Source: Oscillospiraceae bacterium (GTDB taxonomy: Bacteria; Bacillota; Clostridia; Oscillospirales; Acutalibacteraceae). Taken from it: a stretch of 64,000 bases of DNA. The translations under genes and the position numbers were made by a program. The DNA lies in NCBI GenBank assembly GCA_015066595.1, contig SVNZ01000002.1, positions 124,001 through 188,000 of the forward strand, read 5' to 3'. Below, in pieces: positions 21,898 to 37,215 of this stretch (position 1 is its first letter; each line of letters starts with the position of its first letter). The notes beneath the pieces are model-generated. The model was given only the letters and a program-made list of their open reading frames with translations. It searched no databases and was not told the origin of the DNA.

Positions 21898-22704
21898 TTA
21901 TTTTATGTCAAAAATCTTTCTGACGTTTTTTGAAAAAATCATTTCGTTTTCTTCTTCGGTTAGTCCTATAGCCATAAACCGCTCGAGCTCTTCGCTAGGA
22001 TCCCACATTGGATAGTCCGTCGCAAAAAGCACGTGTTGAGCACCGTAGGTGCGTATAACTTCTTTTGCTGCTTGTGGGGTTATCGCATATAGGCTCGAAG
22101 AACAATCAACGTAGAAGTTTTCTATACCTGCATACACCTTGCACGCATCTTCCCACATCGACCAGCCACCAAAATGTGCACCAATAACAGTGAGATTTTT
22201 GTACTTTTTCAGCACAGGAAGCAAGCGGTTAGGGTTAGAATAGTCATAGCGATTATCGCCTGTGTGCATTAGAACAGGGAGCCCCTTCTCCTCGCATAAA
22301 TTATAAATCTGAAGACATCTTTTGTCATCTATCGCAAACTGCTGGATATCAGGGTGAAGCTTCACTCCCTGCAGTCCGAGTGAGATAAGATGCTCAACAT
22401 CACCTTTCTGGTCTTCACTATCAGGGTGGAGTGTACCGAGTCCTGTCAGCATACCCTTGTGCTCATCAACACTCTTAGCAATGAACTCGTTGATAGATTT
22501 CACCTGATGCGGAGTAGTAGCGACAGACTGCACAATAAAGTGGTCGACCCCCGCCTTTTTGCCACGAGCAAGCAAATCCTCAGTAGTACCCAAGCATTTT
22601 GACACGATATCATAAAAGCGGTCTGTACCACCCACCGCCTTGCTGGCAATCTTTTCGGGATAGATATGACAATGTGCATCTATAACTTCGTAATTTTTAT
22701 ACAT
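21898..22704 (-). CDS. Amidohydrolase-family metal-dependent hydrolase
   Basis: A 268-residue TatD/amidohydrolase_2-type (COG2159-like) protein. The metal motif is DAHCHIYP with His11 and His13. Further ligand segments are GVKLHPD, MHTGD, GAHFGG and ATDYPMWDP, which supplies the final Asp. The family includes decarboxylases and hydrolases of cyclic or aromatic acids. It is the last gene of the Leu T-box unit, overlapping the fusion gene by one base (TAATG). Its place in branched-chain metabolism is unexplained. Confidence 0.85.
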   Translation of the reverse strand: MYKNYEVIDAHCHIYPEKIASKAVGGTDRFYDIVSKCLGTTEDLLARGKKAGVDHFIVQSVATTPHQVKSINEFIAKSVDEHKGMLTGLGTLHPDSEDQKGDVEHLISLGLQGVKLHPDIQQFAIDDKRCLQIYNLCEEKGLPVLMHTGDNRYDYSNPNRLLPVLKKYKNLTVIGAHFGGWSMWEDACKVYAGIENFYVDCSSSLYAITPQAAKEVIRTYGAQHVLFATDYPMWDPSEELERFMAIGLTEEENEMIFSKNVRKIFDIK

Positions 22705-25229
22705 TATGCTGTCTCCACGCTATTTGCTTTTTGCAGGCCAAGCTTTTCAACAGCCTGCTCACGCATTTTATACTTCATAATTTTACCTGCAGCGTTGGTT
22801 GGGAAAGAAGATACAAAATCAACATATCTAGGCACCTTGTGTCGAGCCATATTAGCACCGATGTATTCTTTCATCTCGGCTTCGGTCATAGACTCACCGT
22901 CTTTTAAGATGATACAGGCCATGATTTCTTCACCGTACTGCTCATCAGGAACGCCGATGACCTGAACATCTGATACCTTTTCGTGAGTGTAAATAAACTC
23001 CTCAATCTCCTTAGGATAGATGTTCTCACCACCTCTAATAATCATATCTTTGAGTCGGCCTGTGATACGGTAGTTTCCGTCTTTTGTACGACAAGCCAAA
23101 TCTCCTGTGTGGAGCCAACCGTCTTTGTCGATAGCAGATGCTGTTGCCTGTGGCATTTTGTAGTAGCCTTTCATGATGTTATAGCCACGAGCAAGGAATT
23201 CACCGGGCACTTCATCATCACAGTCTTCGCCTGTTTCAGGGTCAACAATTCTGCACTCAATTTCAGGCAGAGCACGACCAACTGTAGATACTCTGACCTC
23301 AAGCGGGTCATCAGTCGAACTCATAGTACACCCAGGAGATGCCTCTGTCTGACCGTAAACGATAGTGATTTCTTTCATATTCATTTTATCTACAACGTCC
23401 TGCATAACAGAAATAGGACAAGGAGAACCCGCCATAATACCTGTTCGCATATATGAGAAATCGGTTTTTTCGAAATCCTCGTGCTCAAGAAGAGCGATGA
23501 ACATAGTAGGAACACCATGGAAAGCTGTGATATGCTCGTTGTTGATACAAGAGAGTGCAGGCTTCGGTGAGAAATACGGAAGCGGAAGTATAGTACCACC
23601 GTGAGTCATAGTAGCAGTCATAGCGAGCACCATACCAAAGCAGTGGAACATAGGCACCTGAATCATCATTCTGTCAGCAGTAGAAAGGTCCATTCTGTCG
23701 CCGATACACTTACCATTGTTCACGATGTTGTAGTGAGTGAGCATAACACCCTTAGGAAAGCCTGTAGTACCTGATGTGTACTGCATGTTACACACATCGT
23801 CTTTGTCTACAAGAGCAGCCATACGGTGCACTTCTGAAAGCGGAACTTTAGAAGAAAGCTCTACTGCGTCGTTCCATGTCATACAGCCTTTCTGCTTGAA
23901 ACCGACTGTGATAACGTTTCTAAGGAAAGGCAGACGCTTTGAATGAAGCTGTGTGCCCTCTTTTGTGTTTTCAAGCTCCGGACAAAGCTGTGCAACTATT
24001 TTGCCATAATGAGTGTCCTTTGAGCCTTCTGTCATAATGAGAGTATGAGTATCGGACTGCCTGAGCAGATACTCAGCCTCGTGGATTTTATATGATGTGT
24101 TGACTGTAACCAAAATCGCACCGATTTTTGTTGCAGCCCAAAACGCAATATACCACTGTGGTACGTTAGATGCCCACATAGCTACTTTTGAACCTGCTTT
24201 TACACCCATAGCGATGAGTGCTCTGGCAAAGGTATCAACATCATCTCTAAATTCACTGTATGTTCTTGTGTAGTCAAGAGTAGTATATTTGAACGCATAC
24301 TGGTCAGGAAACTCCTCGACCATTCTATCAAGTACATCAGCAAAAGTCGCATCGATAAGAAGATCCTTTTTCCACACAAACTTTCCTGTTCTGGATTTGT
24401 TATGGTACAGAGTCTTTTTGTTCTTTGATGTGTCATCAAACTGCTTCATAAACTCTTTGTACTGAGAGAAGATGATTTCCATATCGTCAATCTCTTCGCA
24501 CCAAGAAGGATCCCAGATAAGAGAAATATAGCCATCATAGTTGACTGAACTTAAAGATAGCATCATTTCTTTTACAGGGAGATCGCCCTCACCTGCTAAG
24601 CAGTATTCTACCTTTTCATCAACCTTTTTAGCATCAGAAAAATGCACGTGCTTTACATATGCGCCGAGGTTTTTGATGACCTGCTCAGGTGTTTCACCAC
24701 AAGTAAAATAAGCGTGTGACAAATGCCACAGTGCAGCAACGTTATCGCTTGCAAAGCTGTCGAGCACCTCGCACAAATCCTTTGTAGACGCAAAAAGTCC
24801 TGATGTTTCAATAAGCAAAATAACGTTTTTCTCAGTAGCTTTATCAAGCACTGACTCAATAGTTTTCTTGACCTGATTGATAGCATCTTCTTTGTTGCTG
24901 CTTTCAAACGCACGCATACGAATATGTGGAATACGCAGGTTAGATGCTATCTCGATACAGCTGTTAATTTCATCGATAGTGCCTTTTTCTGTCAAGCTGT
25001 TTGCTATATCAGACACCACATCAATACACGGAATCTCAAGTCCTTTTTCAAACAAACGTCTGAGAGTTGCTGCTGCGGTATAATCATGGAAAGCACCGTC
25101 TTTTTCAGTGAAAAGGCGGTTATGAATATTATGCAGTTCTATCCCCTTGAAACCAAGGTAGTTAGCCGCATCACAAAAATCTTCAAACTGGCTGTTGTGC
25201 CAGCCTTTTGTAGAAAATGAAAGCTTCAT
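22704..25229 (-). CDS. TIM-barrel (sugar isomerase-like)-acyl-CoA synthetase fusion
   Basis: An 841-residue two-domain protein. Residues 1-275 resemble xylose isomerase-like TIM barrels, with candidate metal residues in LLIETSG, LWHLSHAYF and HVHFSDA. The last expected Glu position reads SLIWDP rather than SLEWDP. Residues about 290-841 form a complete adenylate-forming acyl-CoA synthetase: TSGTTGFPKGVMLTH near 487, IVYGQTEASPG, HTGDLACR, GRLKDMIIRGGENIYP, and the catalytic Lys in NAAGKIMK. The synthetase part resembles medium-chain or fatty acyl-CoA ligases. It is four bases behind the LeuA-like gene and under the Leu T-box, so isovalerate or another leucine-related acid is the likely substrate by inference. 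Confidence 0.88.
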   Translation of the reverse strand: MKLSFSTKGWHNSQFEDFCDAANYLGFKGIELHNIHNRLFTEKDGAFHDYTAAATLRRLFEKGLEIPCIDVVSDIANSLTEKGTIDEINSCIEIASNLRIPHIRMRAFESSNKEDAINQVKKTIESVLDKATEKNVILLIETSGLFASTKDLCEVLDSFASDNVAALWHLSHAYFTCGETPEQVIKNLGAYVKHVHFSDAKKVDEKVEYCLAGEGDLPVKEMMLSLSSVNYDGYISLIWDPSWCEEIDDMEIIFSQYKEFMKQFDDTSKNKKTLYHNKSRTGKFVWKKDLLIDATFADVLDRMVEEFPDQYAFKYTTLDYTRTYSEFRDDVDTFARALIAMGVKAGSKVAMWASNVPQWYIAFWAATKIGAILVTVNTSYKIHEAEYLLRQSDTHTLIMTEGSKDTHYGKIVAQLCPELENTKEGTQLHSKRLPFLRNVITVGFKQKGCMTWNDAVELSSKVPLSEVHRMAALVDKDDVCNMQYTSGTTGFPKGVMLTHYNIVNNGKCIGDRMDLSTADRMMIQVPMFHCFGMVLAMTATMTHGGTILPLPYFSPKPALSCINNEHITAFHGVPTMFIALLEHEDFEKTDFSYMRTGIMAGSPCPISVMQDVVDKMNMKEITIVYGQTEASPGCTMSSTDDPLEVRVSTVGRALPEIECRIVDPETGEDCDDEVPGEFLARGYNIMKGYYKMPQATASAIDKDGWLHTGDLACRTKDGNYRITGRLKDMIIRGGENIYPKEIEEFIYTHEKVSDVQVIGVPDEQYGEEIMACIILKDGESMTEAEMKEYIGANMARHKVPRYVDFVSSFPTNAAGKIMKYKMREQAVEKLGLQKANSVETA

Positions 25230-25232
25230 TTG

Positions 25233-26612
25233 TTACGCCTCCTCATAAACAATTTTGTTCACAGCGTTTAAGTATGCTCTGATACTTGCACCGATGATAT
25301 CGGTCGAAATGCCGTTACCGCTGAAAACTCTTGAACCGTTTCTCAGCTTCACAATAGCGCTACCCATAGCTTCTTTGCCCTGTGTTACTGACTGAATCTG
25401 GAAATCATCGAGCTCATAGTGATGGCCGATAATCTGGTCAATAGCAAGAAAAGCCGCATCAACAGGACCATCACCGATACAAATACCCTGCAACTGCTCA
25501 CCGTCTTTTTCCAGAGTGATCTGAGCACTTGAGTTGATGATGTTACCGCTGTTTACGATATATGAAATAAGTTTGTATGTTGCAGGAACCTGCAGTGCGA
25601 CAGACGCAACAATAGCATCGAGTTCTTTAGCACCGACGTTCTTTTTCTCTGCAACACGTAAAAACTCTTCATACACCTTAGCGTCGTCTTCTTCAGACAA
25701 ATCATAGCCAAGCTTTTTAACAGCAACAGCAACATCGTCTGCAGAGTCTTTTGCATCAAGGTGAATAGAGTTTTCGTCTGCACCTGCTACACTGACAGCT
25801 GTATTTTCATTGTTAGCATTTTCAGCGATGCGGTTGATCTGCTTAATTATTCTGTGCATTTCTGTAAAACGAATGTTAGATTCAAAACCGTAGTTGTCAC
25901 CACAGTTTTTAATCATAGTAACAAATTCATCGAGTGGTGCACAGTCGCCATCTACTGCTGTTTTCACAACATCGACGCCTTTTCTGCATGACAGGATAGA
26001 TGACGCTGTTGCAAGACCATTTTTATTGTCGCATTTTACACCCATAGGAACATCAGCTTTTTTGCCGATTTTTTCTGCAAATTCTGCAAAATCGTCCGGC
26101 ATCATAGATGATGCTGAGTCACATATAGAAATAGCTGTTGCGCCACTTTCACGTGCTGCTTTTATGGCATCTTTGAGAAAGTCTTTCTCTGCTCTTGTAG
26201 CATCTACTGCACAAAACTCTACATTTTCGCAGTAGCTCTTTGCCTTTGTGATACATTCCTTGATATGTGCAATCATCTTGTTAGCTTTTTTGTGGCATGT
26301 GTACTCCATAAGTGCCGGAGAAACCGGAAGCTCAACACGAATACAAGGCTTGTTTGCATTTGAGAGAGCCTGTGCTGCGTTGTCGATACTCTCCAGTGTA
26401 CTGCCAGCCGCTACAGAAATAACGCTCTTTTTCACAAAAGATGCTACTGTGCGCACAAATAGGATGTCTGTTCTTTCATTTATAATTTCAGGTAGCTCAA
26501 TAATATCTACTGATAGTTTCTCTAGTTGACGAGCGATTTCGAGCTTTTCTTTAAAGCTGAATCTGCTGTTTTCTTTGCATAATGTTGTGTCTGCAATTCT
26601 GATTTGTTTCAT
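25233..26612 (-). CDS. LeuA-like protein with degenerate active site and intact regulatory domain
   Basis: A 459-residue homologue of 2-isopropylmalate synthase. The N-terminal HMGL-like barrel keeps the fold but not the chemistry. The DTTLRDGEQ motif is DTTLCKENS, so catalytic Arg and metal Asp are replaced by Cys12 and Lys13. The HxHxD metal motif is KCDNK at 193-197, and the NGxGERAGN loop is shortened to DGDCAP. The C-terminal LeuA allosteric domain (about 340-459) is well preserved, including GDGPVDAAFLAID and STDIIGASIRAYLNA. It lies directly behind a Leu-specifier T-box. It cannot plausibly act as isopropylmalate synthase. A leucine sensor or scaffold, or a novel activity, is possible. 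Confidence 0.88.
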   Translation of the reverse strand: MKQIRIADTTLCKENSRFSFKEKLEIARQLEKLSVDIIELPEIINERTDILFVRTVASFVKKSVISVAAGSTLESIDNAAQALSNANKPCIRVELPVSPALMEYTCHKKANKMIAHIKECITKAKSYCENVEFCAVDATRAEKDFLKDAIKAARESGATAISICDSASSMMPDDFAEFAEKIGKKADVPMGVKCDNKNGLATASSILSCRKGVDVVKTAVDGDCAPLDEFVTMIKNCGDNYGFESNIRFTEMHRIIKQINRIAENANNENTAVSVAGADENSIHLDAKDSADDVAVAVKKLGYDLSEEDDAKVYEEFLRVAEKKNVGAKELDAIVASVALQVPATYKLISYIVNSGNIINSSAQITLEKDGEQLQGICIGDGPVDAAFLAIDQIIGHHYELDDFQIQSVTQGKEAMGSAIVKLRNGSRVFSGNGISTDIIGASIRAYLNAVNKIVYEEA

Positions 26613-26906
26613 AAAAATCTATCCTCTCTTATAAAGAATAAGCAAAATAAAAGTCCCCAAGGCATAGCCTCAGGGACGAAAGTATCGCGGTACCACCCTG
26701 TTTACTGATATAAAACCAGTCAACTTAGCAGGCTCTGACAAGCCTTTTGCCACGGTAACGGGGCACACCGTAACCGCTTAATCGTTTCAGCGGTTCTGCT
26801 CCAAAATGAGACTTCTTCATCCGTTTCTATCGTCTTGCACCGACCGACGACTCTCTGAAAGAAACTGTGGATGAAAAATAATTTCTTCATCGCATTTAAA
26901 AATATT
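26613..26906 (-). promoter_or_regulatory. T-box leader, specifier CUC (Leu)
   Basis: Minus-strand T-box riboswitch in front of the LeuA-like gene. The conserved T-box AGGGTGGTACCGCG is at 26687-26700. The competing terminator hairpin GTCCCTGAGG.../...TTGGGGAC is at 26653-26677, followed by TTTTATTTT. Stem I has the base stem and K-turn (GCGATGA...GGAGC), the AGAGAG bulge and the GGTGCAAG loop. The specifier triplet just above the lower stem reads CUC followed by A (plus-strand 26808-26810), a Leu codon. Uncharged tRNA-Leu would favour the antiterminator and turn the operon on. Confidence 0.9.
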
Positions 26907-26912
26907 GGTATA

Positions 26913-26941
26913 ACTATATCACAGACATTTTGAGATGTCAA
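26913..26941 (-). promoter_or_regulatory. Promoter of the Leu T-box operon
   Basis: Minus strand TTGACA (26936-26941), exactly 17 bp, TATAGT (26913-26918). Confidence 0.85.
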
Positions 26942-27042
26942 CAAATATACGTTAATTTTTTCACTTTTAACATTATCTCTCACATATTATGCAAAAGTAA
27001 CTGTAAAAATCACCAAAAGGCTGTATTATATTAAACAATTTA

Positions 27043-27396
27043 CTATAAAATACTATTCACCCAGTTTAAAAACGGAGTGCGATTATCTGCGTTAGACTTG
27101 TTTGGTCCATACCAATGATTTTCAACTACAAACGTGCATTTTCCAACGACAAATCTGTCCTGATAATAGCGTCGTTTATCGCCGAAATAACACAGCTTTT
27201 TCAGCTCTGCATCTGAACAGTCTGAGGGCACTTCCATCAGTACCGCAAAACCAGAGCTACAACAAAACCTTCTTTGGCACTCATCTGCATTTGTTAGTAT
27301 ATTCAACACACTATCAGTCAAAGCCCCTGCATTATTCATTTTACCAAGAAGACTGAACGCAAACTCTTTGTTCGACATTTTCTCATAATCTGTCAT
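27043..27396 (-). CDS. Hypothetical protein, 117 residues
   Basis: Not recognised. It is soluble, with no signal or membrane helix. It contains three to four Cys (ECQRRFCCSS in the middle) and a conserved-looking aromatic C-terminus with RRYYQDRFV and NHWYGPNKSNADNRTPF. A good ribosome site (AAGGTGG) precedes the ATG. It stands alone between the Leu T-box promoter and the terminator of the Val operon. Confidence 0.7.
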   Translation of the reverse strand: MTDYEKMSNKEFAFSLLGKMNNAGALTDSVLNILTNADECQRRFCCSSGFAVLMEVPSDCSDAELKKLCYFGDKRRYYQDRFVVGKCTFVVENHWYGPNKSNADNRTPFLNWVNSIL

Positions 27397-27505
27397 AAAT
27401 CATACCACCTTTTATAAGTTTTGTTCATTATAACATACTATTACGTGTATGTATTTAACTTCGAAAAATTGTATGCCGACTTCAAACAACAGTAAGTTGG
27501 AAGTA

Positions 27506-27531
27506 ATGTATAACTCACGCATGTTATACAT
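27506..27531. repeat. Inverted repeat upstream of the 117-residue hypothetical gene
   Basis: ATGTATAAC, 8 bases, GTTATACAT: a perfect 9-bp inverted repeat with no T-run on either side, so it is not a terminator. It lies 110 bases upstream of the minus-strand gene ending at 27043 and could be a protein-binding site. The rest of 27397-27549 holds nothing else I can name. Confidence 0.55.
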
Positions 27532-27549
27532 GATTGCAATATGTTTTTA

Positions 27550-27583
27550 TAAAAAAAGTAGAGATAGCAACCGCTATCTCTAC
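27550..27583 (-). terminator. Terminator of the Val T-box operon
   Basis: GTAGAGATAGC/GCTATCTCTAC 11-bp perfect hairpin (27558-27583) followed on the minus strand by seven T. It lies 26 bp past the ilvE stop. Confidence 0.93.
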
Positions 27584-27608
27584 TTATAAACTCATATTAA
27601 ACTCTTAA

Positions 27609-28670
27609 TTATAGCTCAACGATCCAGCCGAACTGGTCTTCAATCTTGCCCCACTGGATACCTGTTAAAGTATCATATAGAGCTTGTGTTGTTTCGCCGA
27701 TTTCGCCTGAGTTTACTGCGTACTTCTTGCCTTTGTAGCACAGCTCACCGATTGGTGAGATAACAGCTGCTGTACCGCAACCCCATGCTTCTTCAAGAGT
27801 ACCGTTTTCCATAGCTTCTTCAAGTTCATCGATAGAAAGCAAACGCTCAGTAACCTTATAGCCTTCTTTTCTGAGCACTTCAAGGCAGCTCATACGAGTG
27901 ATACCAGGTAAGATTGAACCTGAAAGCATTGGTGTGATGATTTCGCCATTGATTTTGAACATAACGTTCATAGCGCCGACTTCTTCAATGTATTTTCTCT
28001 CTACACCGTCGAGCCAGAGCACCTGTGAATAGCCAAGTCGCTCAGCACGCTCACCTGCGCGGTTAGAAGCAGCGTAGTTACCGCCACATTTAGCGTAGCC
28101 TGTACCACCACGTACAGCTCTTACGTCTTCATCTTCGATCATAATCTTTACTGGATTGATACCCTCTGCATAGTAAGAACCTACAGGAGAAGCGATGATG
28201 ATAAATGTTGCATTTGATACAGCGTGAACGCCTAAGCTCTCGTCGTTACCAAACATAAATGGTCTTAAATACAGGGAAGTTCCCTCAGAATATGGAGTCC
28301 AGTCCTGCTCAACCTCAACGAATTTAAGGAGTGCCTCGAGTGCATCTTCCTCTGGAATTTCAGGCAAGCAAAGACGCTCAGCAGAACGGTTCATACGTCT
28401 GATATTCTCGATAGGTCTGAAAAGCTGAACTTTCTTGTCAGCACGTCTGTATGCCTTGAGTCCCTCAAAAATCTCTGAACCATAGTGGAGTACAGTTGAT
28501 GCAGGGTGGATAGAAAGGTTTTCAAACGGTACGATTCGAGCATCGTGCCAGCCCTTATCCTTGCTGTAGTCCATAATAAACATATGGTCTGTGAAAATCT
28601 TACCAAAACCTAAAGCGCTCTCGTCAGGTTTAGCCTTAGGTGTAGTTGTTTTTGTGATTGTGATATTCAT
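27609..28670 (-). CDS. ilvE: Branched-chain amino acid aminotransferase
   Basis: Fold-type IV PLP aminotransferase of 353 residues, the longer eukaryote-like BCAT group. The PLP Lys is at 194 in GYAKCGGNYAAS, LHYGSEIFEGLKAYR is near residue 62, and the PLP-phosphate segment SILPGITR and the late EAWGCGTAA segment are present. It interconverts Val, Leu and Ile with their 2-oxoacids using glutamate. It is the last gene of the operon that begins at the Val T-box. Its place after the 2-oxoacid oxidoreductase fits a final transamination step in valine formation. Confidence 0.95.
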   Translation of the reverse strand: MNITITKTTTPKAKPDESALGFGKIFTDHMFIMDYSKDKGWHDARIVPFENLSIHPASTVLHYGSEIFEGLKAYRRADKKVQLFRPIENIRRMNRSAERLCLPEIPEEDALEALLKFVEVEQDWTPYSEGTSLYLRPFMFGNDESLGVHAVSNATFIIIASPVGSYYAEGINPVKIMIEDEDVRAVRGGTGYAKCGGNYAASNRAGERAERLGYSQVLWLDGVERKYIEEVGAMNVMFKINGEIITPMLSGSILPGITRMSCLEVLRKEGYKVTERLLSIDELEEAMENGTLEEAWGCGTAAVISPIGELCYKGKKYAVNSGEIGETTQALYDTLTGIQWGKIEDQFGWIVEL

Positions 28671-28706
28671 CTAAAACACCTTCTTAAAAAATATTGTGTT
28701 CAAAAA

Positions 28707-29240
28707 TTAGCTGTTAGCACCGAGTTCAAGAGCCTTGATGTTGAGCTCTTTCATATCTGCACGCTTTGCCGAAATAACTTTTGCTAAACCGTTTTCGATA
28801 CCTGCCTGTGTGTAATCGCCGAGCTCTTTGAGCATCTTACCCATAACTATCATGTTAGCAAGGGTAGGAATACCGTTATCAGAAGCGAGCTGTGTAGCAG
28901 GAATATAGAAAACATTTACGTCATCACGCTCTACCTTACGCTCGATAAGTGTAGAGTCAGCGAATATGTATCCGCCCGGCTTAACGTCCTTTTCAAACTT
29001 ATCAAGAGAAGGAAGGTTAAGCGCTACCAAAACATCAGGTGCAGACACGATAGGTGAACCAACCGGCTCGTCAGATATAATAACTGAACAAGAAGCTGTA
29101 CCGCCACGCATCTCAGGACCATATGATGGAAGCCAACTTACCTGTTTGTCTTCTGTGAGTCCCTTATAAGCGACAAATTTACCTGCGAAAAGAATACCCT
29201 GACCACCAAAGCCGGAGAATAAAAACTGTGTAGTAGCCAT
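28707..29240 (-). CDS. 2-oxoacid:ferredoxin oxidoreductase, gamma subunit
   Basis: A 177-residue gamma-type subunit (KorC/VorC/PorG family). It opens with FSGFGGQGILFAGK and has SYGPEMRGGTASC, both typical of the CoA-binding-side gamma subunit. It completes the four-subunit enzyme with the delta, alpha and beta genes upstream. Its start overlaps the beta-subunit stop by one base, indicating translational coupling. In this operon the branched-chain (VOR) reaction is the likely one: acyl-CoA + CO2 + reduced ferredoxin to 2-oxoacid, or the reverse. Confidence 0.92.
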   Translation of the reverse strand: MATTQFLFSGFGGQGILFAGKFVAYKGLTEDKQVSWLPSYGPEMRGGTASCSVIISDEPVGSPIVSAPDVLVALNLPSLDKFEKDVKPGGYIFADSTLIERKVERDDVNVFYIPATQLASDNGIPTLANMIVMGKMLKELGDYTQAGIENGLAKVISAKRADMKELNIKALELGANS

Positions 29241-29995
29241 TATGCTTCCTCCTTTGCTGATCTGTCTTTATAAACGCCGAGTGGATAATATGGGAGCATA
29301 TTATCGTCAATCCACTTGAGTGCATCAACAGGAGTCATGCCCCAGTTTGTAGGACAGCTGGATACAACCTCAACAAGTGAGAAGCCTTTGCCGTCAATCT
29401 GGTTCTGGAACGCCTTTTTGATAGCTTTCTTTGCGTTTTTGATATTTTTAACTGAGTTTACAGTTACACGCTCAAGGTACTCAGGACCTTCAAGCTGAGA
29501 AAGCATCTCACAAACACGGATAGGATAACCACAGTGGTTGACGTCACGTCCGTATGGAGAAGTCTGTGTTACCTGGCCAGGAAGTGATGTTGGAGCCATC
29601 TGACCGCCTGTCATACCATAAATAGCGTTGTTGATAAAAATAACTGTGATGTTCTCGTTTCTAGCAGCTGAGTGTACTGTTTCAGCCATACCGATTGATG
29701 CAAGGTCACCGTCACCCTGATATGTAAATACGATGTTGTTCTCAGGGTCAGAACGTTTAACACCTGTAGCAACTGCAGGAGCACGACCGTGTGCTGCCTC
29801 AATCATATCGCAATTAAAGTAATTATATGCCATAACTGAGCAACCAACCGGTGCAATACCGATGGTTCTGCCCTCGATACCGAGCTCATCAATAACCTCA
29901 GCAACAAGACGATGTACAACACCGTGTAAACAGCCCGGACAGTAGTGCATAGGCACATCAGTCAAAGCATGTGGTTTATCAAATACTACTGCCAT
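29240..29995 (-). CDS. 2-oxoacid:ferredoxin oxidoreductase, beta subunit (TPP-binding)
   Basis: A 251-residue beta subunit. It has the CPGC motif near the N-terminus (YCPGCLHG), the TPP/Mg motif from GDGDLASIG to NNAIYGMTGGQ, and GIAPVGCS. It carries the thiamine diphosphate and joins the alpha subunit at the active site. Start and stop overlap both neighbours by single bases (TAATG arrangement), so expression is tightly coupled. Confidence 0.93.
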   Translation of the reverse strand: MAVVFDKPHALTDVPMHYCPGCLHGVVHRLVAEVIDELGIEGRTIGIAPVGCSVMAYNYFNCDMIEAAHGRAPAVATGVKRSDPENNIVFTYQGDGDLASIGMAETVHSAARNENITVIFINNAIYGMTGGQMAPTSLPGQVTQTSPYGRDVNHCGYPIRVCEMLSQLEGPEYLERVTVNSVKNIKNAKKAIKKAFQNQIDGKGFSLVEVVSSCPTNWGMTPVDALKWIDDNMLPYYPLGVYKDRSAKEEA

Positions 29996-31056
29996 TAGTT
30001 CGCACCTCCGTTTGCTTCAATAATAGCTTCTAATACCTGCTCTGGAGAAGGAATCATACCACCAACACGGTTGCACAGTGTAACAGGCACCTTGCAACCT
30101 GTAGCAAGCTTAACATCTTCAATCATCTGACCCATAGAAAGCTCAACTGAAATAATAGCTTTTGCTTTATCTGCAACCTTCTCAAATGGAGCCTTAGGGA
30201 ATGGCCACAAGGTAATAGGACGGATAAGACCTACTTTGATACCCTGTTTTCTTGCTTCATTGATAGCGTTTTTAGAAACACGTGAAGCAATACCGAATGC
30301 TGCAACGATGATATCAGCATCTTCTGTCATATACTCTTCATACATAGCTTCGTTTGCTTCGACCTGTGCGTAACGTTCATAGCGTTCAAAATTGAGTCGC
30401 TCGAGGTCTTCAGCAACAAGGGACAGTGAGTTTACAATGTTGTGCTCACGCTCCATCTTGGTACCTGTTGTGGCCCATGGAGTAGCTGGTCTTTCTTTGA
30501 CATCAAAGTCAAGCTCAACAGGCTCCATCATCTGGCCCATAGTACCGTCAGCCAAAATCATAGAAGTCATTCTGTATTTATCAGCGAGCTCAAAGCCTTT
30601 TACTGTGAGCTCAGCCATCTCCTGAACTGATGCAGGAGCAAGTACGATCATTTTAAAGTCACCGTGTGCTCCGCCTTTTGTAGCCTGAAAGTAATCAGAC
30701 TGGCTAGGCTGAATACCACCAAGGCCAGGACCACCACGCTGTACGTTGACAACAAGACATGGAAGGTCAGAACCTGCCATATAGGAAAGTCCCTCGCCCT
30801 TGAGTGAAATACCCGGTGAGGAAGACGATGTCATAACACGCTTGCCTGTGGATGCAACACCATACACCATATTGATAGCAGCGATTTCGCTCTCAGCCTG
30901 CAAGAAGCAACCGCCGATCTTAGGCATTTTCTTAGCCATATAAGCAGCGATTTCTGTCTGTGGAGTAATAGGATAGCCAAAGTAGTGCTTGCAGCCAGCG
31001 AGTATTGCAGCTTCAGCAATAGCTTCGTTACCTTTCATCAAAACTTTATCTGCCAT
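29995..31056 (-). CDS. 2-oxoacid:ferredoxin oxidoreductase, alpha subunit (VorB/KorA-like)
   Basis: A 353-residue alpha subunit. The signature GYPITPQTEI lies near residue 28, with ASTGKRVMTSSSSPGISL and GGPGLGGIQPSQSDY further on, as in KorA and VorB. Substrate choice (2-oxoglutarate or branched 2-oxoacids) cannot be read from sequence alone. Operon context with ilvE and a Val T-box argues for 2-oxoisovalerate. It is preceded by a ferredoxin-type subunit four bases away. Confidence 0.93.
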   Translation of the reverse strand: MADKVLMKGNEAIAEAAILAGCKHYFGYPITPQTEIAAYMAKKMPKIGGCFLQAESEIAAINMVYGVASTGKRVMTSSSSPGISLKGEGLSYMAGSDLPCLVVNVQRGGPGLGGIQPSQSDYFQATKGGAHGDFKMIVLAPASVQEMAELTVKGFELADKYRMTSMILADGTMGQMMEPVELDFDVKERPATPWATTGTKMEREHNIVNSLSLVAEDLERLNFERYERYAQVEANEAMYEEYMTEDADIIVAAFGIASRVSKNAINEARKQGIKVGLIRPITLWPFPKAPFEKVADKAKAIISVELSMGQMIEDVKLATGCKVPVTLCNRVGGMIPSPEQVLEAIIEANGGAN

Positions 31057-31060
31057 AATC

Positions 31061-31267
31061 TCACCTCTCTACCTTAATTACACAGTCAGGACACATAGTA
31101 GCACAGAAAGCACAACCGATACAGCTTTGCTCGTCTGTGATTACTGCTGGGTGATGCCCCTTTTTGTTGATTTCGTCTTTTGCAAGGATAAGCAAGTTTT
31201 TCGGACACGCCTGCACGCATAGTCCGCAACCCTTACAGTTGTCTGTTTTAAATGTTAGTTTTGCCAT
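31061..31267 (-). CDS. 2-oxoacid:ferredoxin oxidoreductase, delta (2x[4Fe-4S]) subunit
   Basis: A 68-residue ferredoxin-like subunit with two classical clusters, CKGCGLCVQACP (about 11-22) and CIGCAFCATMCP (about 49-60). The longer spacer between clusters is typical of KorD/VorD subunits. It shuttles electrons between ferredoxin and the TPP site of the enzyme encoded just downstream. Confidence 0.93.
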   Translation of the reverse strand: MAKLTFKTDNCKGCGLCVQACPKNLLILAKDEINKKGHHPAVITDEQSCIGCAFCATMCPDCVIKVER

Positions 31268-31296
31268 AAAACCTCTTCCTTTCCTATAAGCTATCT

Positions 31297-31962
31297 CTAA
31301 ACAGGTCTAGCCTGAAGACTCAGTGGCAAGAGATTATCAATCTTGTCGCATAAGTCATTATATAAATGTTCTTCTACACTTGTGTACACTATCGGCAAAC
31401 CGCTCAGCTTTGAAACCTCGTTTGCGTATTCAACTGAGTCGAGCACATCGTCTGTTGTAGTCACAGCACCTAAATTTGAGTTGTTGACAATACCTGTGAA
31501 GCTGATGTGTCCAACGTACTCAATCTCACGCATAACTTCGATAGTAGACTGCGCATCTCTGGTCAGTGGACGATAACAGTTGATAACCATGAGCATCTCA
31601 TAGTCGTTTTCTTCGATTATCTTCAAAGCTAGCCGACCCAGTGCCAGCGCACCTCTGTCGTCACCGCCGACATCAATAATAACCGACAGCGACTTATCAT
31701 CTGTTATAGCGTACATATCCTGAGGCAGTGCAGGGATATCAACGTTAGAGTTAGCGTAGTCTGACACAATCAGCCTGATACCATTGTCAGCAAACTCCCC
31801 GCTACTGTCCTTTGTTCTGAAATACGGATTAACTATATCAAGGTCAGCAACCGCTACGTTATCGGTCTGTTTTCTGAGTAGCCTAGCCATATTAACAGCA
31901 ACGTTAGTTTTGCCACTGCCATAGTGTCCGCATAGCAATGTGATTCTTTTAAATTTTTTCAT
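31297..31962 (-). CDS. P-loop ATPase of the oxidoreductase operon
   Basis: A 221-residue SIMIBI-type P-loop protein. The Walker A motif is GHYGSGKTN at about 12-20. VADLDIVNPYFRTKD follows, and IIDVGGDDRGA forms the Walker B-like strand. Relatives are often found beside 2-oxoacid oxidoreductases in clostridia, but their role is not established. Cofactor or Fe-S assembly is one possibility. It is 10 bp after the XRE-cupin-synthetase gene and 29 bp before the delta subunit. Confidence 0.85.
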   Translation of the reverse strand: MKKFKRITLLCGHYGSGKTNVAVNMARLLRKQTDNVAVADLDIVNPYFRTKDSSGEFADNGIRLIVSDYANSNVDIPALPQDMYAITDDKSLSVIIDVGGDDRGALALGRLALKIIEENDYEMLMVINCYRPLTRDAQSTIEVMREIEYVGHISFTGIVNNSNLGAVTTTDDVLDSVEYANEVSKLSGLPIVYTSVEEHLYNDLCDKIDNLLPLSLQARPV

Positions 31963-31972
31963 AACTTAACTA

Positions 31973-34261
31973 TTATAACTTATTTCTCTGGATTTTTCCA
32001 CTCACTGTCTTAGGAAGTTCATCTCTGAACACAACAAGTCGTGGATATTTATACGGAGCAGTGCGACTCTTGACATAAGTCTGGATTTCTTTCTTGAGGT
32101 CTTCGGTCGGGTTAGTACCCTTTGTAAGTACGATAGAAGCTTTGACTATCTGACCTCTGACTTCATCAGGAGCGGCAGAAACGCCACACTCGAGTACATA
32201 CGGAAGTTCCATAATAACAGATTCGATTTCAAACGGTCCGATACGGTATCCTGAACTTTTGATAACATCATCGACACGTCCTTCGTAGAAGAAGAAACCG
32301 TCTTCATCACGCCACGCAACGTCACCAGTGTGATAAACACCGTCGTGCATAACTTCCTTTGTTTTCTCTTCGTCATTGTAGTATCCAACGAACAATCCAC
32401 AAGGGTGACCGTTCTTGAGGTTGACTACGATTTCGCCCGGTTCACCGTCAGGAACTTCGTTGCCATCACTATCAACGAGCATAACATCATAGATAGGAGC
32501 AGGCTTGCCCATAGAGCCGATTTTGTGCTTAGCACCTGTCATATTACCAACGATCATTGTGCTCTCTGTCTGGCCAAAGCCTTCGATAATCTGAAGCCCT
32601 GTAGCCTTTTCAAACTGACGATAAACTTCTGGGTTTAATGCTTCACCTGCAGTAGTCATGTGCTGTACAGATGAGAAATCGTATTTTGAGATATCCTGTT
32701 TTACCATCATTCGAAGCATCGTTGGTGGGGCACAGAATGTAGTAATCTGATATTTTGCAAACATCGGCAGAATATCCGCTGCATCGAAACGATCAAAGTC
32801 ATATACGAATGTAGCCGCTTCGCACAGCCACTGACCGTAGAGCTTGCCCCACATAGCTTTAGCCCAACCTGTGTCGGAGATAGTGTAGTGCAAGCCTTCA
32901 GGGTCAACATTATGCCAGTATTTTGCTGTATGGAAATGTCCAAGCGGATATTTGTAATTGTGAGTTGCAATTTTCGGATAGCCTGATGTACCTGATGTGA
33001 AATACATAAGCATAAGATCGTCACCGCAAGGAGCATCTTCTGTTCTATTATAGTGAGTGGAATACAGTGTGTATTCCTCATCGAATGTACGCCAGCCTTC
33101 ACGCTCACCGTTGACGATGAGTTTGTTGACAAGACCGTCGTAGCCTTTTGCCGCTTCATCTACCTGATGCGAAACATCACCGTCTGCTGTACAGATAACT
33201 GTGTTGATACCGGCACTTTTAAGTCTGTATTCAAGGTCGTGAGCCTGAAGCTGGTTAGGAGCAGGGATAGCAATAGCACCGAGCTTGTTAAGACCAATCA
33301 TAGCAAACCAGAACTGGTAGTGACGCTTTAAGATGAGCATAACTCTGTCACCTTTTTTGATGCCGAGCGACTTAAAGTAGTTAGCACACTGAGCAGATGC
33401 TTTCTTGATATCTTTGAAAGTGAATCTGCGTTCCGTGTGGTCTTTAGATATATGTAACATAGCGAGCTTGTCAGGTTTTTTGTCTGCGAGCTCGTCAACT
33501 AAATCAAATGCAAAGTTGAATTTCTCTGTGTTTTTGAATTTGATAGAAGTAGGAGTACCGTTTTCGTTCTCCTCAATATCAACGTACTTTCTATAGATTC
33601 GGTCGACTTCGTGCTTTCTCTGAGTCTTTTTAATCTCAACGAGCTTACCACTTGAAAGCTCAGGAATAGGCTCGCCTGTAGGGTTAAGCACAATAGCATA
33701 AAATACGCAATCCTTACCGTTTACAGCAATCATACCGTGTGGCTTGTCCGAGTCAAAGTAGATAGAGTCTCCAGGACCCAATATCTCTTTGTGCTCGCCT
33801 ACTTGTACCATAAGGTTACCCTCAACTACAATGTCAAGCTCCTGACCTTCGTGTGTAGTGAGCTCAATGTCACCCTGCTGAGCGTTTTCGTCATAGACAG
33901 AGCGAACATAAAGTGGCTCTGCGATACGGTTCTGGAACGCATAAGCAAGGTTGTAGTAAGTCATACCGTGAGCCTGAGCTACCTTCTGACCTAAACCTGC
34001 ACGAGTAACGCTATAGCTCTTAAGGTTTGGTGAGTAACCCTCAATAATGTCAGTAACGTTGACAGAAAGAGCCATAGCACAGCGATAAATAAAAGCGAAG
34101 TTTAAATCACTTTTACCCTGTTCACAGCTTAAATATTCATCGACAGTAACATCGGTTTTCTTAGCCATTTGTTCAACTGTGAGGTTCTGGATTTCTCTTA
34201 GCTCTCTGATACGAGCAGCCATCTCTTGAATTTTGTAGTCAAGACCTGTCATTTGTTGCAT
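31973..34261 (-). CDS. XRE-cupin-acyl-CoA synthetase fusion, Val T-box operon
   Basis: A 762-residue triple-domain protein. Residues 15-72 form an XRE/HTH_3 DNA-binding domain (IRELREIQNLTVEQMAKKTD). Residues about 115-195 form a cupin (THEGQELDIVVEGNL, then GDSIYFDSDKPHGMIAV). Residues about 235-762 are a full acyl-CoA synthetase: FTSGTSGYPK near 424, SDTGWAKAMWGKLYGQW, GFGQTESTM, HTGDVAWRDEDG, and catalytic Lys in SGKIQRNKL. The synthetase resembles medium-chain or acetyl-CoA synthetase types. XRE-cupin is a common regulator layout, and its covalent link to an enzyme is unusual. Leader and operon suggest isobutyrate as substrate and DNA binding linked to acyl status; both are inference. Confidence 0.9.
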   Translation of the reverse strand: MQQMTGLDYKIQEMAARIRELREIQNLTVEQMAKKTDVTVDEYLSCEQGKSDLNFAFIYRCAMALSVNVTDIIEGYSPNLKSYSVTRAGLGQKVAQAHGMTYYNLAYAFQNRIAEPLYVRSVYDENAQQGDIELTTHEGQELDIVVEGNLMVQVGEHKEILGPGDSIYFDSDKPHGMIAVNGKDCVFYAIVLNPTGEPIPELSSGKLVEIKKTQRKHEVDRIYRKYVDIEENENGTPTSIKFKNTEKFNFAFDLVDELADKKPDKLAMLHISKDHTERRFTFKDIKKASAQCANYFKSLGIKKGDRVMLILKRHYQFWFAMIGLNKLGAIAIPAPNQLQAHDLEYRLKSAGINTVICTADGDVSHQVDEAAKGYDGLVNKLIVNGEREGWRTFDEEYTLYSTHYNRTEDAPCGDDLMLMYFTSGTSGYPKIATHNYKYPLGHFHTAKYWHNVDPEGLHYTISDTGWAKAMWGKLYGQWLCEAATFVYDFDRFDAADILPMFAKYQITTFCAPPTMLRMMVKQDISKYDFSSVQHMTTAGEALNPEVYRQFEKATGLQIIEGFGQTESTMIVGNMTGAKHKIGSMGKPAPIYDVMLVDSDGNEVPDGEPGEIVVNLKNGHPCGLFVGYYNDEEKTKEVMHDGVYHTGDVAWRDEDGFFFYEGRVDDVIKSSGYRIGPFEIESVIMELPYVLECGVSAAPDEVRGQIVKASIVLTKGTNPTEDLKKEIQTYVKSRTAPYKYPRLVVFRDELPKTVSGKIQRNKL

Positions 34262-34562
34262 GATACATTTCTCCTTAGTTGTTAGGACGAAAAAAGCACC
34301 CGTCCCAAAGTTTTCTTTGAGACGAGCGCATAAAAATCACCCGCGGTACCACTCAAATTGCGATACAATCGCCACTCTCAGGGTCTGACAACCCCTATGC
34401 CTTCACGCAGCAATCACGGAGAGGTTCTACTAACTAAAAAGCTTTCTTCCTCTCGGCTCAGAAGCTACAAACACAGAAACTGTAGTCCGGCGACTCACAC
34501 CAACCGTCGCCTCTCTGAAGGTCATATATCTGTGCACTCTTCGTCATAGCCTTTTATTACAC
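34262..34562 (-). promoter_or_regulatory. T-box leader, specifier GUA (Val)
   Basis: Minus-strand T-box riboswitch. The conserved GAGTGGTACCGCGG is at 34341-34354. The terminator hairpin at 34296-34329 has stem CCGTCTCAAAG-like arms around TTTT/AAAA, with T6 after it. Stem I has the K-turn base GGCTATGACGAAG paired to CTTCTGAGCC, the AGAGAGGCGAC bulge region and the GGTGTGAG loop. The unpaired 3' side above CTTC ends GUA followed by G, giving Val (plus-strand 34466-34468). A shifted reading UUU (Phe) is less consistent with the other two leaders. Aminoacylation of tRNA-Val would repress the operon. Confidence 0.88.
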
Positions 34563-34568
34563 GATAAC

Positions 34569-34597
34569 ACTATATCATAACTCTCTCAAAATGTCAA
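34569..34597 (-). promoter_or_regulatory. Promoter of the Val T-box operon
   Basis: Minus strand TTGACA (34592-34597), 17 bp, TATAGT (34569-34574). It begins four bases past the stop of the Ile-linked synthetase gene, and no terminator separates the two units. Confidence 0.85.
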
Positions 34598-34600
34598 TAT

Positions 34601-36871
34601 TTACAGTTTATTTCTCTGAATCTTACCGCTTATTGTTTTTGGCAGATCATCTCTGAATACTACAATACGTGGGTACTTGTATGGTGCAGTACGAGATTTG
34701 ACATAATTCTGAATTTCTTTTTTGAGATCTTCACTAGGGTTTGTACCCTTTGTAAGTACGATAGAAGCCTTAACAACCTGACCTCTTACTTCGTCAGGCT
34801 CAGCTGACACACCACACTCGAGCACATATGGGAGTTCCATGATAACAGACTCGATTTCAAACGGTCCGATACGATATCCCGAACTCTTGATAACATCGTC
34901 AACTCGACCGACATACCAAAGGAAACCGTCTTCATCACGCCATGCAACGTCACCTGTATGATAGTAACCGTCGTGGTAGACTTCTTTTGTTTTTTCTTCA
35001 TCTTTATAGTAACCCAGGAACAAACCGCATGGGACCTTGTCACTTGTCTTGATGCAGATTTCACCCGGCTCACCATCAGGTACCTCGTTGCCATCATTAT
35101 CAAGAAGATGAACATCATACAGCGCAACAGGCTTACCCATTGAGCCGAGCTTTGAACCTTCACCGATAAGGTTAGCGATAGAAAGAGTTGTTTCTGTCTG
35201 ACCAAAGCCCTCTTTGAGCTTAAGGCCTGTTGCCTTTTTGAACTGTTTATAAACCTCAGGATTAAGTGCCTCACCTGCTGTTGTTGCTCTTCTTACAGAT
35301 GAGAAATCATATTTTGAAAGATCCTGCTTAATCATCATTCTCAGCATTGTAGGTGGAGCACAGAAAGTGGTGATCTGGTACTGTTTAAACATCGGTAAGA
35401 TATCCGATGCATCAAAGCGTTCAAAGTCGTATGTGAACACTGCACCCTGACTTAACCACTGACCGTAAAGCTTACCCCACAGTGCTTTACCCCAACCTGT
35501 GTCAGAAATAGTAAAGTGCAAACCATCAGGTGACACACCGTGCCAGAACTTTGCTGTGATGAAGTGACCCAACGGATATTTGTATGAATGAAGTGCAATT
35601 TTCGGATAACCTGTAGTACCTGATGTAAAGAACATCAGCATCGGGTCATCACCACAAGGAGTGTCCTCGTTTCTGTAATAATGAGCAGAAAACAGAGGGA
35701 ATTCTTCGTCAAAGTTATTCCAACCCTCACGCTCACCACCGACTAAAACTTTAGTTTTAAGTGTAGGAGATTTCTCCTGTGCAATATCAACCTGATGTGA
35801 TACATCACCGTCAGCAGTACAAACGATAGCACTGACACCTGCTGCATTGAAGCGATAATCAAAGTCATGGGCTTGGAGCTGGTTAGTAGCAGGGATAGCA
35901 ATAGCTCCGAGCTTGTGCAGACCTAAAATAGCAAACCAGAACTGGTAGTGACGTTTTAGAACAAGCATAACTCTGTCGCCCTTCTTAATACCCAGTGACT
36001 TGAAGTAGTTTGCAGCCTGAGCAGATGCACGCTTCATATCATTGAATGTGAACCTGCGCTCGTTTTTATCTCTGTCAACGTGAATCATAGCGAGCTTATC
36101 AGGATCGCTCTTAGCGATAGCGTCAACTGTATCAAAAGCAAAGTTATATCTATCTTCGTTTTCAAAGTCGATAGCTTTAAGACATCCGTTTTCATCAACA
36201 GTAGTTTTGATGAACTCTTCACACAGAAGCTTATCCTGTACATTTTCTGAATGAGATACCAGAGTATCACGGATAATATCCTCTGACTCATTTTCACCAG
36301 GAAGTACTACCGCAACAAACTGACATTCTTCACCATCTACAGCAATCATACCGTGAGGAGTAGAACTGTTGTAGTAAATGCTATCGCCTTCACTTAAATA
36401 TTCGATATTATCACCGACCTGTATTTTGAGCTTACCTTTTAAGATAAAGTCAAATTCCTGACCGGAGTGTTTTGTAAGATGGATAGGCTTATCTTGTAGC
36501 TCCTTGGAGTATTTATATGTAACAAAATAAGGCTCGGAAATTTTCTTTCTAAACCACGGAGCAAGGTTCTGAATAACAATGCCGTCTTCTTTTGCGGTCT
36601 GCTGACCCTGACCTTTTCTTGTTACTGTATATGAAGAAAGCAGCGCACTTTTACCCTCGAGCAAATCAGAAATACCTATATTAAAAGCAAGTGAGCACTT
36701 GTGAATGAAAGTGAAAGGGAAGTCCTGCTTTCCTGACTCAAAATCACAGTATTGTTCAACACTCACGTCTGTTTTCTTCGCCATTTCTTCTACAGAAAAG
36801 CCGAAGATTTCTCGCATTTCTTTAATTCGTACGGCCACCTCAAGTAGCTTTTGAGTTTCAACAGTTGCCAT
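34601..36871 (-). CDS. XRE-cupin-acyl-CoA synthetase fusion, Ile T-box
   Basis: A 756-residue paralogue of the gene at 31973 with the same XRE (about 14-70), cupin (about 112-190) and acyl-CoA synthetase (about 230-756) order. The C-terminal 70 residues are nearly identical in the two proteins. Motifs are FTSGTTGYPK, SDTGWGKALWGKLYGQW, GFGQTETTLS, HTGDVAWRDEDG and SGKIQRNKL. Differences cluster in the HTH, the cupin and the segment after GFGQTE, where acyl and DNA specificity would be expected to diverge. Single gene behind an Ile-specifier T-box. 2-Methylbutyrate activation is the likely role by inference. Confidence 0.9.
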   Translation of the reverse strand: MATVETQKLLEVAVRIKEMREIFGFSVEEMAKKTDVSVEQYCDFESGKQDFPFTFIHKCSLAFNIGISDLLEGKSALLSSYTVTRKGQGQQTAKEDGIVIQNLAPWFRKKISEPYFVTYKYSKELQDKPIHLTKHSGQEFDFILKGKLKIQVGDNIEYLSEGDSIYYNSSTPHGMIAVDGEECQFVAVVLPGENESEDIIRDTLVSHSENVQDKLLCEEFIKTTVDENGCLKAIDFENEDRYNFAFDTVDAIAKSDPDKLAMIHVDRDKNERRFTFNDMKRASAQAANYFKSLGIKKGDRVMLVLKRHYQFWFAILGLHKLGAIAIPATNQLQAHDFDYRFNAAGVSAIVCTADGDVSHQVDIAQEKSPTLKTKVLVGGEREGWNNFDEEFPLFSAHYYRNEDTPCGDDPMLMFFTSGTTGYPKIALHSYKYPLGHFITAKFWHGVSPDGLHFTISDTGWGKALWGKLYGQWLSQGAVFTYDFERFDASDILPMFKQYQITTFCAPPTMLRMMIKQDLSKYDFSSVRRATTAGEALNPEVYKQFKKATGLKLKEGFGQTETTLSIANLIGEGSKLGSMGKPVALYDVHLLDNDGNEVPDGEPGEICIKTSDKVPCGLFLGYYKDEEKTKEVYHDGYYHTGDVAWRDEDGFLWYVGRVDDVIKSSGYRIGPFEIESVIMELPYVLECGVSAEPDEVRGQVVKASIVLTKGTNPSEDLKKEIQNYVKSRTAPYKYPRIVVFRDDLPKTISGKIQRNKL

Positions 36872-37181
36872 AACGATTCCTCCTTTAAGGATAAATATAG
36901 TATAATAATATAAAAACCCGTCTCAAAGAAACCTTTGAGACGGGTGTAAAATACACTCGCGGTACCACTCAAATTGCAGAAAATATATCTGCCACTCTCA
37001 GAGTCTAACAACTCCTATGCCTTTACGCAGCAATCACGGAAGACGTCTACTAACATCGCTTTCGGGTCTTCGGCTCAGAAGTGATGGGCAACCTAATTAT
37101 CTGTTGTCGGTTTACACCAGCCACCGACTCTCTGAAAACAAATAAATAAAGCCGTCTTCGTCATAGCCTTTATAATTTTTT
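36872..37181 (-). promoter_or_regulatory. T-box leader, specifier AUC (Ile)
   Basis: Minus-strand T-box riboswitch. GAGTGGTACCGCG is at 36958-36970. The terminator hairpin ACCCGTCTCAAAG/CTTTGAGACGGGT is at 36916-36945, followed by TTTTATATT. Stem I shares the K-turn base GGCTATGACGAAG/CTTCTGAGCC and other segments with the Val leader, showing common ancestry. Above CTTC the loop reads CAUCA, giving AUC followed by A, an Ile codon (plus-strand 37083-37085). Confidence 0.9.
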
Positions 37182-37186
37182 TTACA

Positions 37187-37215
37187 AGTTTAGCACTTAA
37201 AAAAAGGTTTGTCAA
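37187..37215 (-). promoter_or_regulatory. Promoter of the Ile T-box gene
   Basis: Minus strand TTGACA (37210-37215), 17 bp, TAAACT (37187-37192). Confidence 0.78.

Follow-up and report, generated by a model that had tools for sequence, protein, structure and literature searches.

How does a bacterium of the gut type obtain valine, isoleucine and leucine when its genome lacks, as far as searched, the normal pathway for making them? The question is raised by a locus of Oscillospiraceae bacterium (GCA_015066595.1, contig SVNZ01000002.1), which lies in a stretch of 64,000 nt (positions 124,001-188,000 of the forward strand, hereafter the window) and consists of three transcription units, each preceded by a T-box leader and each containing an acyl-coenzyme A (acyl-CoA) synthetase gene. 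In the 1.73-Mb genome (completeness 99.3%), profile searches gave zero matches for ilvB (TIGR00118), ilvC (TIGR00465) and ilvD (PF00920), and LeuB, LeuC and a true LeuA were not found. The single match in the leuB search scored 27.5 bits against a cut-off of 353.2, the single match to PF00330 lies inside an aconitase-like open frame of 649 aa, and the sole match to PF08502 (LeuA_dimer) is the first gene of the Leu unit, a LeuA homolog that we call pLeuA. De novo leucine synthesis via this LeuA-like gene is rejected, since its catalytic motifs are gone and LeuB and LeuC were not found. A previous reading of the locus without database searches (the sequence-only reading) had noted the absence of ilvC, ilvD, leuB, leuC and leuD from the window; for ilvC, ilvD, leuB and leuC the searches extend this to a 99.3% complete genome.

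We consider it highly probable that the locus is a salvage route by which branched short-chain acids from the environment are turned into valine, isoleucine and leucine, with separate control of each branch. A branched-acid-to-amino-acid pathway with each branch under its own amino acid had been suggested from the letters of the locus, and the suggestion gains support from the missing de novo genes, the conserved codon-gene wiring, the Macs-like synthetases, and the presence of VorB and IlvE. T-boxes turn genes on when the cognate amino acid is scarce and its tRNA is uncharged. In the proposed mechanism, uncharged tRNA-Ile, tRNA-Val or tRNA-Leu would cause read-through of the matching unit, whose synthetase would activate 2-methylbutyrate (Ile), isobutyrate (Val) or isovalerate (Leu) with adenosine triphosphate (ATP) and CoA. 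The oxidoreductase would then carboxylate the acyl-CoA with reduced ferredoxin to a 2-oxo acid, which IlvE would transaminate to the amino acid, and pLeuA may add leucine feedback, most likely on the isovaleryl-CoA synthetase, on top of the tRNA-based control. The ATP-dependent synthetases, the T-box logic and the missing pathway argue for the biosynthetic direction.

The three leaders, which like the genes and sites of their units lie on the minus strand, were identified with the Rfam covariance model RF00230 (gathering score 93), and each match spans the whole model. The Leu-unit leader (26669-26899; 126.3 bits, E 1.2e-27) and the Ile-unit leader (36933-37173; 101.6 bits) score above the gathering score, and the Val-unit leader (34315-34556; 88 bits, E 1.6e-18), which is below it, was seen with a relaxed threshold. 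Their specifiers occupy the expected loop position and read CUC (26810-26808), AUC (37085-37083) and GUA (34468-34466), which confirms the sequence-only reading. Its claim that each T-box stands upstream of an acyl-CoA synthetase holds for all three units with one refinement: the Leu unit starts with the LeuA-like gene and has its synthetase second. The GTGGTACCGCG antiterminator core with its UGGN and a competing terminator are present in all three leaders, and the terminator hairpin with its T-run overlaps the 3' end of the T-box match in each (26653-26677 in the Leu, 34296-34329 in the Val and 36916-36945 in the Ile leader). Promoter-like sites of the sigma-70 type, with 17-nt spacing and 10-11 of 12 consensus matches, precede the Leu (26913-26941, TTGACA-17-TATAGT), Val (34569-34597, TTGACA-17-TATAGT) and Ile leaders (37187-37215, TTGACA-17-TAAACT). 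Promoter-like sites as such are not rare, with 42 in the scan against 32.0 (standard deviation 6.0) in shuffled sequences, which is a weak control, and the control for terminators is modest (16 against 11.1, standard deviation 3.4); the three leader promoter/terminator pairs are among the best-scoring sites.

The genome has a tRNA-Leu(GAG) and a tRNA-Val(UAC) that end in ACCA, as do its Leu tRNAs and its complete Val tRNAs in general. From 42 matches ARAGORN read 40 tRNA entries, and these include neither tRNA-Ile(GAU) nor tRNA-Ala; our guess at the reason is that the rRNA spacers are perhaps absent from the draft assembly. Rfam detects nine T-boxes in total in this genome. Five of the six others precede cysE, pheS, alaS, thrS and aspS, as read from translations with no family search, and the sixth is unclear.

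The wiring of codon to gene was followed in two sets of loci. The first comprises 40 stretches from relatives and the window, in which all 17 pLeuA leaders carry a Leu codon, the Val codon is among the candidates in 9 of 9 Val-type leaders (the first candidate in five), and the Ile codon was read by rule in 17 of 18 Ile-type leaders, the remaining one being AUC by eye. For the second, one genome per species was scanned with a 17-member pLeuA alignment (A1), which gave at least 575 stretches at E <=1e-3 that may include true LeuA; the best 80 of these form the named set. By record title and taxonomy, 25 of the 80 loci belong to Oscillospiraceae, 14 to Lachnospiraceae and 36 to Bacillota without a family; a ruminant, deer or horse is mentioned in 35 of the record titles, and no such host in the other 45.

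A synthetase with an N-terminal TIM barrel, the second gene of the Leu unit in the window, lies directly 3' of pLeuA in 78 of the 80 named loci; of the two exceptions, one is a contig that ends 210 nt past pLeuA and the other a synthetase that failed the directly-behind rule. A T-box core was detected at 52 of 79 pLeuA genes, of which 51 are real and one is spurious, and a Leu codon was found in all 51 real leaders (50 by rule, one by eye). Among Ile-type synthetases, 18 of 23 have a core, with an Ile codon in 17 of 17 readable leaders; among Val-type synthetases, 15 of 22 have a core, with a Val codon in 15 of 15 leaders (three by eye). Four pLeuA and four Ile-type genes were too near a contig end for the core search. 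L149 (the spurious core, inside ilvE) and L126 (a masked leader) were excluded from the codon counts, the readings by eye concern L131, L140, L147 and L185, and L143, with a partial pLeuA only, is not among the 79.

When the leaders of both sets were aligned on a codon-blind anchor, the cognate codon stood at one fixed register in 62 of 63 leaders of Leu units, 31 of 32 of Ile units and 17 of 21 of Val units, against a highest cognate count in 18 other registers of 9/63, 5/32 and 9/21, respectively; the leaders are related by descent, so these counts are not independent draws. L120, the one duplicate noticed, is the same contig as G022:C67 and was left out of this control, as well as of the ortholog set and the tree described below, and is counted in the tallies of the named set.

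The operon layout is fluid among relatives. In G025 and G027, a Leu T-box heads a single row of genes for pLeuA, the synthetase, IlvE and the oxidoreductase, and in G011 the oxidoreductase is in the Val unit; the layout examples read include L081 (1-19460), L088 (1-20000) and L095 (1-16829). Genes for pLeuA also occur on contigs labeled Salinivirgaceae (Bacteroidota), Eggerthellaceae (Actinomycetota) and Abditibacteriota (L164, L172, L182), by either horizontal transfer or misbinning of contigs.

The distribution of these genes was compared with that of the normal pathway. In 59 relatives (own genome included), pLeuA is present in 17, of which 15 lack ilvC, and ilvC is missing in 9 of the 42 others; G013 and G023 were scored as having ilvC because of partial contig matches, and G054 (25 bits) as lacking it. 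Of the 17 genomes with pLeuA, 15 have no LeuA_dimer protein besides it, and 38 of the 42 genomes without pLeuA have another LeuA_dimer protein. Among 217 genomes of the order (completeness floor 90%), a synthetase fused to a helix-turn-helix (HTH) and a cupin domain, the type found in the Ile and Val units, occurs in 53 of 94 genomes without ilvC versus 18 of 123 with ilvC (p about 1e-10 in tests that ignore phylogeny); the truncated synthetases of G112, G141 and G164 were left out of the fused count. A side-by-side pair of fused synthetases occurs in 17 genomes, 16 of them without ilvC; G134, whose two copies are on different contigs, was not counted. Two relatives keep the modules that they seem to need. 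G049 (93% complete) has ilvC and ilvD, its PF00330 protein is only aconitase-sized and pLeuA is its only LeuA_dimer protein; of the modules it has those for Ile and Leu, and it lacks a Val synthetase. In G010, which possesses ilvC, ilvD and adjoining genes of the LeuC-like and LeuA_dimer kinds, an Ile T-box precedes the one fused synthetase.

The Ile unit consists of one gene only, a 756-aa HTH-cupin-AMP-binding fusion (34601-36871), which domain search and relatives suggest to be a 2-methylbutyryl-CoA synthetase. The Val-unit synthetase (31973-34261; 762 aa) has the same domain composition, is 65% identical to it, and is on the same grounds a candidate isobutyryl-CoA synthetase. The nearest solved relative of both is 3etc (MacsMa of Methanosarcina acetivorans; E 5e-188 and 2e-183), the sole chain at E <=1e-150, in an alignment that covers the whole synthetase part of the fused proteins. 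Passages of PMC10455477 describe the Methanosarcina enzyme as preferring 2-methylbutyrate, with a critical Trp259; according to passages of PMC10026030, MbcS of S. aureus activates 2-methylbutyrate and isobutyrate, and isovalerate poorly, and serves membrane lipids. The window proteins would resemble both enzymes as AMP-forming synthetases for 2-methyl-branched short acids and differ from them in the fused N-terminal HTH and cupin domains; MbcS is their top-scoring NCBIfam family, and they remain below its equivalog cut-off. Both window proteins contain two Macs-like pocket segments, TAK[FYW]W and G[FY]GQTE, and we take Trp259 of Macs to lie in the TAK[FY]W segment. We infer from these relatives that the Ile and Val synthetases act on 2-methylbutyrate and isobutyrate, respectively.

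The Val-type synthetases form a single clade with support 1.0 (FastTree, midpoint root, 28 Val-type and 38 Ile-type tips labeled by best BLAST hit), thus the two synthetases look like old duplicates, each tied to a different codon. The N-terminal HTH and cupin domains of both proteins resemble XRE-cupin regulators. In other genomes the fused-synthetase query was matched across one or more stops, which looks like a regulator gene beside an enzyme gene; a fusion of the two seems to have taken place.

In the Val unit, the synthetase is followed by a CbiA/ParA-like P-loop NTPase (31297-31962), a two-cluster 4Fe-4S ferredoxin subunit of 68 aa (31061-31267, domain search), VorB, the alpha subunit of a 2-oxoacid:ferredoxin oxidoreductase (29995-31056; NF005507, 539 bits, cut-off 399), the thiamine pyrophosphate-binding beta subunit (29240-29995) and the gamma subunit (28707-29240), both identified by Pfam, and the branched-chain aminotransferase IlvE (27609-28670; NF009897, 488 bits, cut-off 307). 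A terminator-like hairpin found by the terminator scan (27556-27585) marks the end of the unit. All four subunits of the 2-oxoisovalerate:ferredoxin oxidoreductase (Vor) type are therefore in one operon; VorB and IlvE exceed their curated cut-offs, confirming that a ferredoxin-dependent 2-oxoacid oxidoreductase and ilvE belong to this unit. The set differs from known Vor in that its beta and gamma subunits are below their equivalog cut-offs, and in its placement in a T-box operon, the Val one here and the Leu one in G025 and G027. The P-loop NTPase adjoins ferredoxin/oxidoreductase genes in many relatives (41 NTPase and 39 VorB near-full-length copies in the stretches read). A 117-aa open frame without a Pfam match (27043-27396) lies between ilvE and the Leu leader.

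The Leu unit is composed of pLeuA (25233-26612), the TIM-barrel synthetase (22704-25229; 841 aa, AP_endonuc_2 and AMP-binding domains), a candidate isovaleryl-CoA synthetase, and an amidohydrolase (21898-22704; Amidohydro_2), all assigned by domain search. The sequence-only reading had noted neither the LeuA homolog without catalytic motifs at the head of this unit nor the HTH-cupin and TIM-barrel fusions of the synthetases. The synthetase belongs to another family than those of the Ile and Val units, as the poor activity of MbcS with isovalerate would explain. Its fused TIM barrel (residues 1-250) is weakly conserved, with a mean top-residue frequency of 0.54 versus 0.81 in the synthetase part, and bears weak likeness to solved barrels (3wqo, E 5e-6); the weak similarity and the few conserved residues suggest that it may be a second degenerate enzyme domain.

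pLeuA shares with 2-isopropylmalate synthase, LeuA, an HMGL-like barrel and the allosteric LeuA_dimer domain (residues 328-454), and is shorter (about 459 versus about 500 residues). In true LeuA, RDG is a catalytic and HxH a metal motif. The RDG, HxH and GERAG motifs and the NAFxH segment are absent in all 94 proteins of the pLeuA ortholog set (more than 36% identity, frames at least 93% of full length), and the vacated positions vary between orthologs. The barrel retains E103, D137 and R140. By score, the window protein reaches 277 bits against an isopropylmalate synthase equivalog cut-off of 532 at best. PF08502 was found in 17 of 17 members of the pLeuA alignment, and in each of the 136 pairs among these the LeuA_dimer domain exceeds the barrel in conservation (mean identities 67.6 versus 46.2%). 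In five true LeuA from relatives the domain is the more conserved part in none of 10 pairs (49.1 versus 63.1%); these five were chosen by their RDG motif, so the comparison is valid for the conservation pattern and not for motifs. They come from eight candidates, of which two gave no frame with RDG and G036 was excluded by judgement as a different synthase. The ratio of nonsynonymous to synonymous substitution rates (dN/dS) is <=0.21 in 16 pairs among nine pLeuA orthologs, with one barrel value saturated.

In a search of a large protein collection, at least 7,735 pLeuA-related clusters, out of 8,000 candidates scored, matched at E <=1e-60, counted by score and not by motifs, and the four named entries among the 120 clusters listed are all "hypothetical protein". 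A PDB sequence search with the regulatory domain alone gave zero matches at E <=1. The conservation pattern, the position and the near-exclusive distribution with true LeuA point to a sensor, and we give roughly even chances to pLeuA being a leucine-binding regulator, most likely of the adjoining isovaleryl-CoA synthetase. The history that would lead there is in our estimate about as probable as its opposite: once leucine was no longer made de novo, a LeuA would have lost its catalytic function and persisted as a subunit that senses leucine and exerts feedback on an unrelated enzyme, the isovaleryl-CoA synthetase that took the place of the pathway, with a leucine T-box acting on the same operon at the level of RNA.

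A rather doubtful alternative is that pLeuA, instead of sensing leucine, has a new enzymatic activity in leucine metabolism and acts together with the fused TIM barrel and the amidohydrolase. Purifying selection and the three retained barrel residues are consistent with this, as is the neighboring amidohydrolase, a metal-type enzyme whose H11, H13, K115, H147, H177 and D230 are conserved in at least 97% of 34 orthologs. However, the four motifs are gone and their positions differ between orthologs, the conserved part of the protein is its regulatory domain, and the amidohydrolase was seen within the examined flank at only 26 of the 80 named loci.

The alternatives to the salvage route concern the fate of the acyl-CoAs and the direction of flow. 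Since MbcS, the best NCBIfam family for the Ile and Val synthetases, albeit below its cut-off, has a lipid role in S. aureus, the acyl-CoAs might mainly prime branched-chain fatty acid synthesis, with the amino acids secondary. We regard this as very unlikely, because the oxidoreductase and IlvE are also in the Val unit, each branch follows its own amino-acid tRNA, and the de novo route to the three amino acids was not found. Alternatively, the flow could be reversed, with branched-chain amino acids broken down for energy in a Stickland-like way that yields 2-oxo acids, acyl-CoAs and branched acids. Such oxidoreductases are reversible, clostridia make branched acids, and catabolism needs no de novo pathway; yet this is highly improbable for units that are all under T-boxes and hence switched on by amino acid scarcity, whose AMP-forming synthetases consume ATP, and whose fused synthetases are associated with the absence of ilvC, as expected for a replacement of biosynthesis. 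That pLeuA is the product of a decaying pseudogene, kept solely by its operon position, is scarcely credible, since the loss of catalytic motifs is set against near-full-length frames in 94 loci, the low dN/dS (one value saturated) and the thousands of related clusters.

Several observations weigh against the salvage route and the part assigned to pLeuA in it. Within 420 nt, no T-box core was detected at 23 of the 79 pLeuA genes (8 of them directly behind ilvE), at 7 of 22 Val-type and at 1 of 23 Ile-type synthetases of the named set. The pocket segments are not universal: TAK[FYW]W occurs in 31 of 38 Ile-type and 23 of 28 Val-type orthologs, and G[FY]GQTE in 37 of 38 and only 18 of 28, respectively. 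The scores of the fused synthetases against the MbcS equivalog (NF047394) are 432.7 and 437.1 bits, at a cut-off of 850, and branched acyl-CoAs could also feed branched fatty acids. The co-occurrence statistics ignore phylogeny. G025 is a counter-example, with pLeuA alongside ilvC and a LeuA/LeuC pair, and G051 has a second LeuA_dimer protein besides pLeuA. In G010, a 26% partial match to the gamma subunit was the only trace of the oxidoreductase in the 18 kb that were read, and no genome-wide search for it was made. Five relatives (G038, G045, G050, G054 and G058) have the TIM-barrel synthetase without pLeuA, which is thus not an obligate partner; four of them have another LeuA_dimer protein and G045 has none. 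Finally, leucine binding by pLeuA is suggested by a single line of evidence, the conservation of its domain.

The chemistry of the proposed route is old. Rumen bacteria convert isovalerate to leucine, isobutyrate to valine and 2-methylbutyrate to isoleucine, as passages of PMC7356843 recount for work from 1962 on. The conversions proposed here are the same three, and the locus adds a candidate gene set and a separate T-box for each branch. The leaders share their RNA architecture and specifier reading with the T-boxes of ilv/leu operons and aminoacyl-tRNA synthetases, and differ in that acyl-CoA synthetase units are controlled. The terms acyl-CoA, CoA synthetase and CoA ligase are absent from the main text, supplements aside, of two T-box surveys (PMC2494555, PMC3766115). 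In the open-access literature searched, we recognized no description of such a gene set with a T-box for each branch; parts of it may be covered by older or subscription papers. T-boxes are equally old, and relatives of the enzymes are known. What looks new in that literature is the assignment of genes to the route, each branch with its own T-box, and the family of proposed leucine-sensing pseudo-enzymes.

The locus offers a concrete gene set for a conversion known since the 1960s, and may allow one to predict from a genome which acid a bacterium needs, with each branch expected to answer to its own amino acid. Gut microbes exchange branched acids, which makes the locus relevant to cross-feeding and to ruminant feed supplements. 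The locus further brings to light a very large protein family with the look of an enzyme that became a sensor. If this is true, leucine would be sensed twice, as charged tRNA and as the free amino acid, across a large and mostly uncultured group of gut bacteria.

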